From contig NZ_BBRB01000006.1 in NCBI RefSeq assembly GCF_000975055.1, positions 10,409 to 74,408 on the forward strand: a stretch of DNA of 64,000 nucleotides, given 5' to 3'. A program made the translations under genes and the position numbers. Under the pieces are notes generated by a model that worked only from the letters and a program-made list of their open reading frames with translations, made no database searches and was not told the DNA's origin. Below, in pieces: positions 9,099-13,887 of this stretch. The first letter of the stretch is position 1, and every line of letters begins with the position of its first letter. The DNA comes from Demequina sediminicola (lineage in GTDB: Bacteria > Actinomycetota > Actinomycetes > Actinomycetales > Demequinaceae).

Positions 9099-10304
9099 CT
9101 ATTTCGCGGTGGCACTGATGCCGGGCAGGGCCAGCATACGGTCAAGCGCAATCTTCGCTTCCGCCTGAGTTTGGGGGTCGACCACGATTTGATTGGGAAC
9201 CTCGCCTGCGACAAGAGTTTCCAACGCCCACACCAGGTGTGGGAGGTCAATGCGGTTCATGGTTGAGCAGAAGCACACCGTGTCCTCAAGGAACATGATC
9301 TTTTTATCTTGGTGGGCGTTTGCTAACCGGCGCACGAGATTGAGTTCGGTGCCAATCACCCATGATGAGCCGGGTTCGGCCTCGTCGAGTTTCTTGATGA
9401 TGTACTCCGTCGAGCCCACATAGTCAGCGGCCGAGACAACCTCGTGCGTGCACTCGGGGTGGACCAGCACATTGATATCCGGTACTTGCTCGCGCGCTGC
9501 ATCGACATTCTCCTTGCGGAAACGTCCGTGCACGGAGCAGTGACCCTTCCACAGGATGATGCGAGCAGCCTGAAGTTCCTCGAGAGTGTTCCCCCCAAGC
9601 GGCTTGCGGGGATCGAAGACGACGCAGTCGTCGAGCGAGTAGCCGAGCTTCAGCACGGCCGTGTTGCGGCCGAGGTGTTGGTCGGGAAGGAACAGCACCT
9701 TTCCGTCTCCTTCGAGGCCACCTACCTGGTCGTAGGCCCAGCGGAGCGCCACCTCTGCATTCGATGACGTGCAGACGACACCGTTGTTGCGACCACAGAA
9801 TGCCTTGATCGCGGCGGTGGAGTTCATGTAAGTGACGGGCACCGTCTGATCGGCGATGCCGGCCTCAGCAAGTTGCTCCCAGGCGTCAGAAACCTGATTG
9901 ATGTTGGCCATGTCAGCCATCGAGCAACCTGCGGCCATATCGGGGAGAACGACCTGCTGGTCTTCACCGGTGAGGATGTCTGCGCTTTCCGCCATAAAGT
10001 GCACGCCACAGAAAACAATGAACTCCGCCTCTGGACGCGCGGCCGCGTCCTTGGCAAGTTTAAAGGAATCACCCGTGACATCAGCGAACTGAATAACCTC
10101 GTCCCGCTGGTAGTGGTGTCCTAAGACGAATACCCGGTCGCCCAGCGCATCCTTAGCGGCACGGGCGCGCTCAACGAGGTTGGGGTCGGAGGCATCGGGC
10201 AATCCACCCGGACAATCCACACCTCGCTCGGAAAGCGGATCACGCTTGCTTCCTAGGAGAAGCAGTGCTGGCGACTGGCCTGGCTCGGAGAACGTCGTGC
10301 TCAT
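9099..10304 (-). CDS. nadA: Quinolinate synthase
   Basis: [4Fe-4S] enzyme that condenses iminoaspartate with dihydroxyacetone phosphate to quinolinate, the precursor of NAD. The 401-residue protein carries the family motifs GHHYQ, the cluster cysteine in FCGVHFMAE (about Cys99), DMAAGCSMAD, HPEC, and the C-terminal cysteines of the VCFCSTMN region. nadB and nadC, normally its operon partners, are not adjacent. Instead it is divergent from a glycerate-kinase-like gene and close to the Fe-S genes erpA and a desulfurase-like gene. Confidence 0.95.
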   Translation of the reverse strand: MSTTFSEPGQSPALLLLGSKRDPLSERGVDCPGGLPDASDPNLVERARAAKDALGDRVFVLGHHYQRDEVIQFADVTGDSFKLAKDAAARPEAEFIVFCGVHFMAESADILTGEDQQVVLPDMAAGCSMADMANINQVSDAWEQLAEAGIADQTVPVTYMNSTAAIKAFCGRNNGVVCTSSNAEVALRWAYDQVGGLEGDGKVLFLPDQHLGRNTAVLKLGYSLDDCVVFDPRKPLGGNTLEELQAARIILWKGHCSVHGRFRKENVDAAREQVPDINVLVHPECTHEVVSAADYVGSTEYIIKKLDEAEPGSSWVIGTELNLVRRLANAHQDKKIMFLEDTVCFCSTMNRIDLPHLVWALETLVAGEVPNQIVVDPQTQAEAKIALDRMLALPGISATAK

Positions 10305-11394: not shown

Positions 11395-11748
11395 ATGACG
11401 GATACCGCGACCGAGGTACCGACCCACGGAGTCGTGATTACCGATGCCGCCGCAGACAAGGTCAAGAGTCTGCTTGAGCAGGAAGGCCGTACGGACCTTC
11501 GGCTGCGCCTTGCAGTGCAGCCGGGCGGATGCTCCGGCCTCATCTATCAGCTCTACTTCGACGAGCGCTCGCTCGACGGAGACGCGTTGCGCGAATTTAA
11601 CGGCGTAGGCGTCATTGTCGACAAGATGTCCGTGCCATACCTCGATGGAGCGACGATTGATTTCGCCGACACCATTGAGAAGCAGGGATTCACGATTGAC
11701 AACCCCAACGCCGCGAGTTCGTGTGCATGCGGAGACTCCTTCTCCTAA
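11395..11748 (+). CDS. erpA: Iron-sulfur cluster insertion protein (A-type carrier)
   Basis: IscA/ErpA/HesB family carrier of 117 residues that delivers Fe-S clusters to apo-proteins. The three conserved cysteines are present: one in QPGGCSGL and two in the C-terminal SSCACGDSFS. A strong Shine-Dalgarno (AAAGGAGG) lies about 7 nt before the ATG. It is the only gene in the window expressed with such a strong ribosome-binding site in this area. Neighbours are nadA (an Fe-S client) and a cysteine-desulfurase-like gene, and respiratory Fe-S proteins follow. Confidence 0.92.
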   Translation: MTDTATEVPTHGVVITDAAADKVKSLLEQEGRTDLRLRLAVQPGGCSGLIYQLYFDERSLDGDALREFNGVGVIVDKMSVPYLDGATIDFADTIEKQGFTIDNPNAASSCACGDSFS

Positions 11749-11854: not shown

Positions 11855-12985
11855 CTATTCGTCCGAAGCCATTGATCCTCGGACTCCTTCGATCACGCGC
11901 GGCATGGTCGCAATGAACCGCTCGACGTCGTCGTCGGACACACCAGGATGCAGGCCAATGCGCACGTTTCCATGGGTCAGAGCACCCATCGCTGCGAGTA
12001 CTTGACTCGGCTGAAATTGAGATTTGCCGCAGGCGGAGCCTGACCCCACGGAGAACCCCTCTCTGTCGAGTCGGGAGACGAGGGGTTCGCCGTCGAGGTA
12101 GAGGAATGCGGCCGTCACGAGGTGGGGCAGCCGTTCCACGGCATCACCAACGATGTGAACCCCCTCCATCCGCGACATATCGTTGCGAATCCGAGACACC
12201 AGGTCGAACTGGCGCTGGCCTTCTGAGGTGAGCGATTCCATGCGTTCCTGGAGGGCAACGGCCGATGCGAGGGCTAGAGGAACGCTGACACCGCCTGGCG
12301 CCCACGGGTCATCGCCGTCTGGCCACGCTTCGAGCCATCGCGTCTGTGGACGTATCGCCACAACCGCGAGCCCGGCGGGTGCGCCCCAATCGGCCGGGTC
12401 AGCAACCAACGCATCCCAGTGGCTCGGTGGCTCGACGTGACCGAGGCTCGCAGTGGCGTCTACGACCAACGGCACACCGGCGGCGGACGTGATCGCGTGA
12501 ACGTCATCGAGTCGCTGAATAGTGCCGATTTCGTGATTGGCATGCTGTACCGCGGCTATCGCGGTAGCAGGGTGGCCCACATAATCGGCTAGCGCCGCAA
12601 GGTCGATGTGGCCCTGGGGATCGACTTGCACTCGGTCGACCGCTCCATTCGCGATGAAATCTGCGACGTCGATCACTGCCTCACGCTCAATGGCGGACAC
12701 CACGATGCGGTCGCGCCCACGCCGTGCCGCGTAGGTAGCGCGGAGAAGGCGTTCAAACGCCATGGGAACTGAGTGGGCGAAGTGCACGTTCTCAACAGAG
12801 ACACCGAGGACATCGGCAATTGCACCTCGCGCGCCATCGAGGAGAGCGCGTGACTGCCGAGCTTCGGACGTTAATCGGGTGGGGTCAGCCCAGCCGTCCG
12901 CGATTCCGGCATTGAGGGCTTGGACTGTGCGGGCGCTGACGGGTGAGCGACCGCCGGCATCGAGAAACGTACGGCGCGCTGGCAT
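11855..12985 (-). CDS. Cysteine-desulfurase-like protein lacking the PLP lysine
   Basis: A 376-residue protein clearly of the NifS/IscS class-V aminotransferase fold (N-terminal FLDAGGRSPV, HANHEIGTIQ, VVDATASLGH, C-terminal loop SVGSGSACGK, VRIGL). Checked against IscS, it keeps the PLP-nitrogen Asp (D176), the mobile-loop sulfur-acceptor Cys (C319) and a conserved Arg (R342). It lacks the Schiff-base lysine (D199 at that position, in DPADWGAPAG), the PLP-stacking His (R101), the Gln of D-x-x-Q (A179) and the GAT motif (SVPM). It should therefore not be a normal PLP desulfurase. ATG 12985 is preferred; GTG 12991 is possible. It is divergent from ctaC and convergent with erpA. Confidence 0.8.
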   Translation of the reverse strand: MPARRTFLDAGGRSPVSARTVQALNAGIADGWADPTRLTSEARQSRALLDGARGAIADVLGVSVENVHFAHSVPMAFERLLRATYAARRGRDRIVVSAIEREAVIDVADFIANGAVDRVQVDPQGHIDLAALADYVGHPATAIAAVQHANHEIGTIQRLDDVHAITSAAGVPLVVDATASLGHVEPPSHWDALVADPADWGAPAGLAVVAIRPQTRWLEAWPDGDDPWAPGGVSVPLALASAVALQERMESLTSEGQRQFDLVSRIRNDMSRMEGVHIVGDAVERLPHLVTAAFLYLDGEPLVSRLDREGFSVGSGSACGKSQFQPSQVLAAMGALTHGNVRIGLHPGVSDDDVERFIATMPRVIEGVRGSMASDE

Positions 12986-13017
12986 AGTCACACGTTATCG
13001 CGCGCTAGACTGGCCGC

Positions 13018-13887
13018 GTGTCCTCAACTGATCGATTCCGCATGCCCCGAAAGGCCGCCATCGGAGCCGGTGCCGTAGGTGTCGCGCTCGCGCTAGCAGG
13101 CTGCTCCCAAGGCATTGAAAATGGTGCGCTCCCGTCGACGCCGGAGATTACTAATCAGACCGGCACCGTCATTGAACTTTGGAATGGCGCGTGGATTGCA
13201 GCGCTCGTCGTCGGCGTCATTACCTGGGGTCTCATCCTCTGGTGCGTCGCGGTGTATCGCAAGCGCAAGGGCGACAACAAGTTGCCGGTGCAGACGCGGG
13301 TCCACCTGCCACTCGAATTGATGTACACCTTGGTGCCGATCATGGCTATTGGTGTGCTCTTCAAGTACACGGCCGAGGACATTGCTGAGATCACTGCGAT
13401 TCCTGAACAGTCTGATATTGAGATTCAGGTGGTCGGCAAGCAGTGGAGCTGGGACTTCAATTACCTCAGTGATGACGTGTTCGACCCGGGCGTCCAGGCG
13501 CAACTCACGGGAGAAGATGGCGTGGAGGCTACATTGCCTACTCTCTACCTTCCGGTCAATGAGAGTGTGCACTTCTACCTCGACTCACGCGACGTCATTC
13601 ACTCCTTCTGGATTCCCGCCTTCCTCTACAAGGAAGACACCGTGCCAGGCCGGACCAACGAGTGGGCAGTGACGCCTACCCAGACCGGCACGTACCAGGG
13701 CAAGTGCGCAGAACTCTGCGGTGAGTTCCACGCCTCCATGCTGTTCAACGTCAAGGTTGTTGAACGTGACGAATACGACGCGTACATGCAGGAACTCCGC
13801 GACAAGGGTTACGAAGGCGCACTCGGACTCGAGTACAGCCGCGACCAGGTCGTCGAATTTGCTACTGAACACGGAGAGACCGAGTAA
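13018..13887 (+). CDS. ctaC: Cytochrome c oxidase subunit II
   Basis: Lipoprotein subunit II of the aa3 terminal oxidase, carrying the CuA centre that accepts electrons from the bc1 complex. The 289-residue product has a Tat/Sec-like basic N-terminus, a lipobox (LALAGC, Cys at about residue 28), two membrane helices and a cupredoxin domain. CuA ligands are seen in DVIHSFW and [15 protein letters not shown] 13018 lies 6 nt after TAGACT with no Shine-Dalgarno, suggesting a leaderless message. The stop overlaps the ctaD start (TAATG). Confidence 0.95.

Follow-up and report, generated by a model that had tools for sequence, protein, structure and literature searches.

A cysteine desulfurase-like protein without the PLP lysine accompanies one type of quinolinate synthase in actinomycetes

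Quinolinate synthase, NadA, carries a [4Fe-4S] cluster, and in C. glutamicum a NifS-type desulfurase for cluster assembly, NadS, is encoded with nadAC (PMC11995493, available portion). A NifS is likewise assigned to the B. subtilis NAD pathway in a table of PMC6522883. Some relatives of these desulfurases lack the lysine that binds pyridoxal phosphate (PLP). The accessible portions of two papers describe A. fulgidus IscS as a Lys-to-Asp protein with no desulfurase activity, whose Cys321 ligates a [2Fe-2S] cluster on IscU (PMC7585200, PMC9769115), and its structure is depicted with PLP (PMC9769115, legend). M. acetivorans IscS1, without the catalytic lysine, is suggested to act in the same way (PMC7585200, available portion). 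Our residue roles follow E. coli IscS, in which K206A and variants of H104, D180 and Q183 lose activity (PMC9978102, available portion). Here we describe a desulfurase-like protein, X, that lacks the lysine and tracks one NadA type, an association that is new here. Among the literature matches listed, we recognised no description of the lysine-less X family.

X is encoded in the window, the whole 64,000-nucleotide stretch of DNA analysed, between erpA and ctaC (Table 1). The protein is 378 residues long from its GTG start, or 376 from an ATG at codon 3. It scores 86 bits against Pfam Aminotran_5 (PF00266; cut-off 21.5), as expected of a class V aminotransferase fold, and stays below the cut-offs of the NCBIfam models for NifS (150.4 bits, cut-off 530.75) and IscS (80.4 bits, cut-off 643.2). 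Structure prediction returned a complete IscS-like fold (pLDDT 89.7, pTM 0.89) in which only residues 1-3, 224-233 and 320-326, the last being the Cys loop, fall below a pLDDT of 50. The model aligns over 357-372 residues, with Z scores of 44-46, to human Nfs1, M. tuberculosis IscS, E. coli IscS and A. fulgidus IscS. By sequence, the nearest PDB relative is A. fulgidus IscS (4eb5), which also has Asp at the lysine position. The intact IscS/NifS fold proposed in an earlier sequence-only reading is therefore borne out, and all residues named there are present at their number plus two, since that reading began at the ATG (position 12985) two codons after the GTG: D199 becomes D201, R101 becomes R103, A179 becomes A181, D176 becomes D178, C319 becomes C321 and R342 becomes R344, with SVPM at residues 74-77.

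Table 1 Features of the X locus, in window coordinates.
Feature	Position	Strand	Basis or conservation
nadA, 'locus type' quinolinate synthase with two additional conserved cysteines, Cys31 and Cys227; putative X partner	9099..10304	-	Pfam NadA, 333.5 bits; co-occurrence
erpA, A-type Fe-S carrier, convergent with X	11395..11748	+	Pfam Fe-S_biosyn; synteny
X, NifS/IscS-fold protein without PLP lysine, 378 aa	11855..12991	-	GTG start; ATG is codon 3
R344, equivalent of Arg354	11960..11962	-	111/111 lysine-less, 77/77 lysine-bearing
C321, sulfur-acceptor loop Cys (Cys328 of E. coli IscS), SGSAC loop	12029..12031	-	Cys in 111/111 lysine-less, 77/77 lysine-bearing
D201, PLP-lysine position (Lys206 of E. 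coli IscS)	12389..12391	-	Asp in 32/32 aligned genus copies
D178, equivalent of Asp180, PLP N1 contact	12458..12460	-	111/111 lysine-less, 77/77 lysine-bearing
E154, equivalent of Glu156, pocket residue	12530..12532	-	111/111 lysine-less, 77/77 lysine-bearing
R103, position of PLP-stacking His104	12683..12685	-	His in 77/77 lysine-bearing, 16/111 lysine-less
ctaC, encoding cytochrome oxidase subunit II, transcribed away from X	13018..13887	+	Conserved neighbour

Judged by the hallmarks of a desulfurase, X retains the loop cysteine (C321) and the equivalent of Arg354 (R344) and lacks the Schiff-base lysine, replaced by D201. Contacts to the PLP ring and phosphate are replaced as well, with R103, P76, D198, A200 and A181 standing at His104, Thr76, Ser203, His205 and Gln183 of E. 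coli IscS. X thus shares with A. fulgidus IscS the change of Lys to Asp together with a retained loop cysteine. It holds no substitute lysine: its sole Lys, K323, lies in the Cys loop and is unconserved among the 32 aligned genus copies, which speaks against takeover of the role by a lysine nearby. The residue roles used here follow IscS structures as well.

We compared 111 lysine-less with 77 lysine-bearing deduplicated homologues, grouped by the residue at the D201 position (excluding L169, L183, the duplicates L086-L090, the incomplete L081 and any row with 97% identity or more to another). Ser203 is kept in 6 of the 111 lysine-less copies versus 77/77 lysine-bearing ones, His205 in 0/111 versus 65/77, Thr76 in 36/111 versus 76/77 and Gln183 in 0/111 versus 57/77. 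The loop cysteine persists throughout while the PLP contacts are mostly lost, in agreement with the suggestion that the fold was reused with selective retention of this residue. The lysine itself gives way to Asp (80 copies), Ser (17), Ala (7), Thr (3), Met (2), Glu (1) or Gly (1). Because the phosphate and ring contacts are gone, PLP binding is argued to be lost, and we infer that lysine-less X does not bind PLP at all; the Asp, Glu and Arg that it conserves may have a structural role. The Cys loop reads SGSAC in 106 lysine-less copies, SGASC in two and TGSAC in one; in the remaining two it is altered and the Cys still aligns. These two come from a sister genus and read CGCTC (L047, G044:C6) and VGCSC (L048, G045:C144); the former is a second copy without the usual neighbours, and the latter adjoins erpA.

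To the extent that X was read, the lysine-less state is uniform in the window's order. At E <= 1e-30, X matched in 91 of 346 order genomes, one of which (G229) instead has a NifS with the lysine, next to nadA of the other type. Sequences read from 67 of the remaining 90 carriers (31 from the window's own family, 36 from others) were all lysine-less (67/67). In the class, 159 of 197 genomes match at E <= 1e-22 with ordinary IscS mixed in, and 132 match at E <= 5e-30, a threshold chosen after inspecting the list and leaving G415 (4e-23) and G419 (1e-29) outside; X was read in 38 of the 132. A phylum-wide search with a lysine-bearing X query matched ordinary NifS as well. We also collected 80 named or titled loci, all with a ctaC match and 78 readable (L169 and L183 were not). 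Of the 78, all 22 from Micrococcales are lysine-less, as are an Actinomycetales MAG and an unplaced MAG (L215, with Thr). Lysine-bearing copies come from Streptosporangiales, Micromonosporales, Propionibacteriales, Kitasatosporales, Jiangellales and Catenulisporales, from a Nanopelagicales MAG and from four further MAGs that are unplaced.

Lysine-bearing and lysine-less X occupy the same place. Most loci run nadA, erpA, X (on the opposite strand), ctaC, ctaD, sometimes with other genes intervening. The listed starts of X and ctaC are 26 bases apart (window 12991-13018), which means either that the two promoters share sequence or sit within a gene, or that one of the starts is wrongly assigned. 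In X-less genomes we read 14 erpA-ctaC gaps and found X in none; the gap was empty or held another ORF, which in L223, L224, L226, L227, L228, L230 and L231 resembles, by eye, a leucyl/phenylalanyl-tRNA-protein transferase. Three f37 genomes of 2.2, 1.5 and 1.3 Mb (L130, L133, L135) carry a diverged lysine-less X and locus-type NadA despite genome reduction.

The presence of lysine-bearing X at the same locus in other orders (77 copies) means that the family derives from an ordinary-looking desulfurase, and the lysine-bearing outgroups mark the lysine as ancestral. When the trait columns were left out of tree building, parsimony gave five, two or three changes between Lys and other residues; the two-change tree puts three long f37 rows inside the order's clade, and the three-change tree leaves them out. 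A single lysine-less clade was not rejected by the AU test (p 0.172 on the first tree set, 0.096 on the set without f37 rows), and monophyly of the order's copies was allowed (p 0.558). On these alignments, repeated independent loss of the lysine is favoured rather than established.

X follows one type of NadA. Searching the 346 order genomes with the window's NadA gave 220 matches at E <= 1e-40 in two clear groups, a locus type (E <= 1e-176, n=92) and another type (n=128). All 90 X carriers (E <= 1e-30) have locus-type NadA, and two of the 92 locus-type genomes show no X. Not one of the 126 genomes that lack a NadA match has X at this X threshold, and among the 128 with the other type the X query matched only the lysine-bearing NifS of G229. 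In the class, 131 of 132 X carriers (E <= 5e-30) have locus-type NadA, here defined as E <= 1e-160 plus the incomplete G424 and G530 (E 2e-102 and 4e-113; 71 and 65% identity); four of these 135 locus-type genomes show no X at E <= 5e-30. The genomes behind all these counts are not phylogenetically independent. Opening the seven exceptions, we found a full X in G533 and an X fragment at a contig edge in G502. The contig stops just past erpA in G285 and next to nadA, on the X side, in G090 and G467; in G483 and G475 it runs out some 2.4 kb from the outermost gene of the locus, towards the expected place of the missing gene. For these five, the gene may be missing from the assembly or from the genome.

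Absences are shared too. X and NadA are jointly absent within families that otherwise have both: f14 (G058, G074, G088), f16 (G075, G089, G103), f26 (G384) and f31 (G388, G411). In 20 X-less order genomes, erpA was kept in 18 and ctaC in 14. X thus resembles NadS in that its gene lies close to nadA and is inherited together with it. We also opened 20 loci of the other NadA type, drawn from the 128 order genomes and four further class genomes that have it. In every one of them (20/20) a NifS-like gene lies within reach, at 3.5-5.3 kb, and encodes both the lysine motif and the SGSAC loop, so that in the loci examined each NadA type goes with its own NifS-type protein. The NadA proteins differ too: Cys31, in the motif ERGV[DE]CPG[GD]LP, and Cys227 are both present in 48/48 NadA beside lysine-less X and 23/23 beside lysine-bearing X (setting aside L070, which has the other NadA type) and in 0/20 of the other type. 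As a speculation, these two cysteines are candidate contact points for X.

We regard the X-NadA link, as drawn from genome comparison, as well supported. X and nadA are near neighbours, so co-inheritance could partly reflect linkage, and X could be serving the pathway as a whole and not NadA in particular. The sequence-only reading had suggested, by way of example, a role for X in Fe-S assembly; that connection is supported, but co-occurrence points to NadA and not to a general role with ErpA or SUF proteins.

We therefore lean, with a probability of roughly 0.55, towards X as an Fe-S maturation partner dedicated to NadA, one that would make no sulfur itself and would dock or relay through Cys321. 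We infer the chemistry (relay or docking), the physical partnership with NadA and the loss of PLP binding. X would descend from a PLP-dependent cysteine desulfurase whose gene stood between erpA and ctaC and which was probably the private sulfur source of NadA. The PLP site would then have been dismantled in the window's order and some other lineages, X being retained because NadA still needs it. By the known route lysine-less X should draw no sulfur from cysteine. Most likely it would dock on NadA, where Cys321, on its flexible loop, would pass on a persulfide loaded by SufS-SufU (or IscS) or, alternatively, would retain a cluster intermediate during delivery of the [4Fe-4S] cluster to NadA. 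The invariance of this flexible-loop cysteine suggests that the hand-over step survives. Relay and ligand roles both stand, and sequence gives no choice among relay, scaffold and regulator.

A PLP-free relay would require an upstream donor, for which SufS-SufU is a possible candidate. The window's genome carries a complete-looking cluster of what we take, by reading, to be sufB, sufD, sufC, sufS and sufU, SufU being named also from a NifU_N search whose single match in the genome adjoins SufS. Besides SufS, an IscS-like protein is encoded. We rejected relay to TusA as a general route, as TusA (PF01206) has no match in the window's genome; it has none either in 3 of 14 controls, C. glutamicum included. 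One lysine-less X, at L058:7036-8493 (+), is fused to a TusA domain (57.6 bits) whose CPLP motif is intact, and this fusion fits a sulfur-passing role; it is the one such fusion seen among nine proteins run against Pfam and in rough motif scans, one of which misses L058.

Heterologous expression of NadA offers a further point of contact. All 19 f33 genomes with a NadA match carry the locus type (19/19); from a TusA fusion we take f33 to be Streptomycetaceae. According to the available portion of PMC8896826, S. cattleya NadA did not complement E. coli delta-nadA in any of four conditions (by itself, together with the SUF system of B. subtilis or of E. coli, or under anaerobiosis; Table 1 of that paper), although the protein was detected by mass spectrometry. 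This failure would fit a missing partner, with other causes possible. For M. smegmatis NadA, SUF genes alone sufficed for rescue (PMC8896826, same portion), so not every actinomycete NadA needs more than SUF. The broader proposal, at somewhat less than even odds, is that a PLP-free desulfurase relative became the obligate maturation partner of one NadA form in many actinomycetes, switching from making sulfur to passing it or docking more than once at the same locus and keeping its NadA partnership throughout.

The strongest competitor, unlikely but well short of negligible, is that X is a cluster-ligand or scaffold helper whose loop cysteine coordinates a nascent cluster on SufU, ErpA or NadA, with no persulfide involved. 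This is how A. fulgidus IscS, with the same Lys-to-Asp change and the nearest solved relative of X by sequence, is described as working. However, the archaeal protein keeps more of its PLP site (GAT and His in the alignment, and PLP in the structure) and shares 26-28% identity with X, versus 38-43% for seven lysine-bearing actinomycete X proteins. X is therefore nearer to its lysine-bearing actinomycete relatives, and the lysine-less state most likely arose separately from that of the archaeal IscS. A ligand or scaffold role is in any case compatible with the NadA link and only partly a rival to the dedicated NadA partner that we prefer.

We find it doubtful that X is a regulatory or structural pseudoenzyme, tuning Fe-S or NAD synthesis either through binding to the active IscS or SufS or by sensing NAD, or else cysteine, in its retained pocket. 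The retained Arg, Glu and Asp of the old substrate pocket would suit such a protein, and both SufS and an IscS-like protein are at hand in the same genome, but X follows the NadA type and a sensor has no obvious need for an invariant cysteine on a mobile loop. Still less probable is an X that remains a PLP enzyme, holding the cofactor without a Schiff base: the universal Asp180 equivalent speaks for it, but Ser203, His205, Gln183, His104 and Thr76 have largely or wholly gone from the lysine-less copies (see above and Table 1) and the E. coli K206A, H104, D180 and Q183 variants are inactive.

X is under purifying constraint in its genus. It matched in 44/44 genus genomes, its own included, with 53-75% identity in the others and without internal stops, one match (G013) ending at a contig edge before the Cys loop. 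Among 32 aligned copies 94 columns are invariant, including D178, D201, C321, R103 and R344, and Asp at 201 is present in 11 more (43 of 44 genomes read in all). Nei-Gojobori dN/dS was 0.07-0.27 in the 15 genus pairs with lowest pS, where the relaxed selection once considered for this gene is not apparent; over all 496 pairs the median pN/pS was 0.43, with synonymous sites near saturation. In seven further pairs, compared across the same genomes, dN/dS was 0.11-0.25 for X, 0.06-0.21 for nadA and 0.15-0.29 for ctaC, and the dN of X exceeded that of erpA. A decaying remnant of an ancestral desulfurase is accordingly the least credible reading, with decay as a pseudogene rejected on conservation, low dN/dS and retention: lysine-bearing homologues do exist at the same locus in other orders, as the sequence-only reading had foreseen for a decaying copy, the gene is missing from most sampled order genomes, the genus-wide median pN/pS reaches 0.43 at near-saturated synonymous sites and internal stops occur in the aligned stretch in some small f37 genomes and one other (G441, G378, G425, G473, G466), but decay does not follow, given lysine loss in every copy read from the order's carriers, intact genus copies, close-pair dN/dS in the range of the neighbours nadA and ctaC, Cys and Arg in all 111 lysine-less copies compared, and absences of X that go with NadA.

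Lysine-less X proteins look like cysteine desulfurases and by known mechanism cannot be, so annotation from the fold would be wrong for this part of the family. If the NadA link is true, NAD synthesis in this group relies on an unrecognised, client-specific Fe-S maturation factor, which could explain the inert actinomycete NadA in E. coli (PMC8896826, available portion). Lysine-bearing and lysine-less versions side by side make the roles of a desulfurase apart from desulfuration addressable. Lysine-less desulfurase relatives were already known, with A. fulgidus IscS as the archaeal parallel; the proposed NadA partnership is the advance.

Compared with known systems, X is like A. fulgidus IscS (4eb5, 4eb7, 4hvk; D199K mutant 4r5f) in its natural Lys-to-Asp change (Asp199 there), loop cysteine and full IscS fold, whereas the archaeal protein was solved with IscU, has more PLP contacts and shows no NadA tie in the present data. 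M. acetivorans IscS1 has likewise lost the catalytic lysine, but is archaeal and adjoins IscU1. Lysine-bearing actinomycete X lies beside erpA and/or ctaC like its lysine-less counterpart, goes with locus-type NadA where tested and has the same loop and Arg; it differs in an intact PLP lysine, His, Ser and GT motif. A TusA-like tail, recognised by motif, extends lysine-bearing X at four Kitasatosporales loci and in Actinospica, and Pfam shows it for L118. Finally, C. glutamicum NadS and B. subtilis NifS resemble X as NifS-type proteins assigned to NAD synthesis, but the NifS encoded beside the other NadA type here is lysine-bearing at every locus opened, and X is lysine-less.
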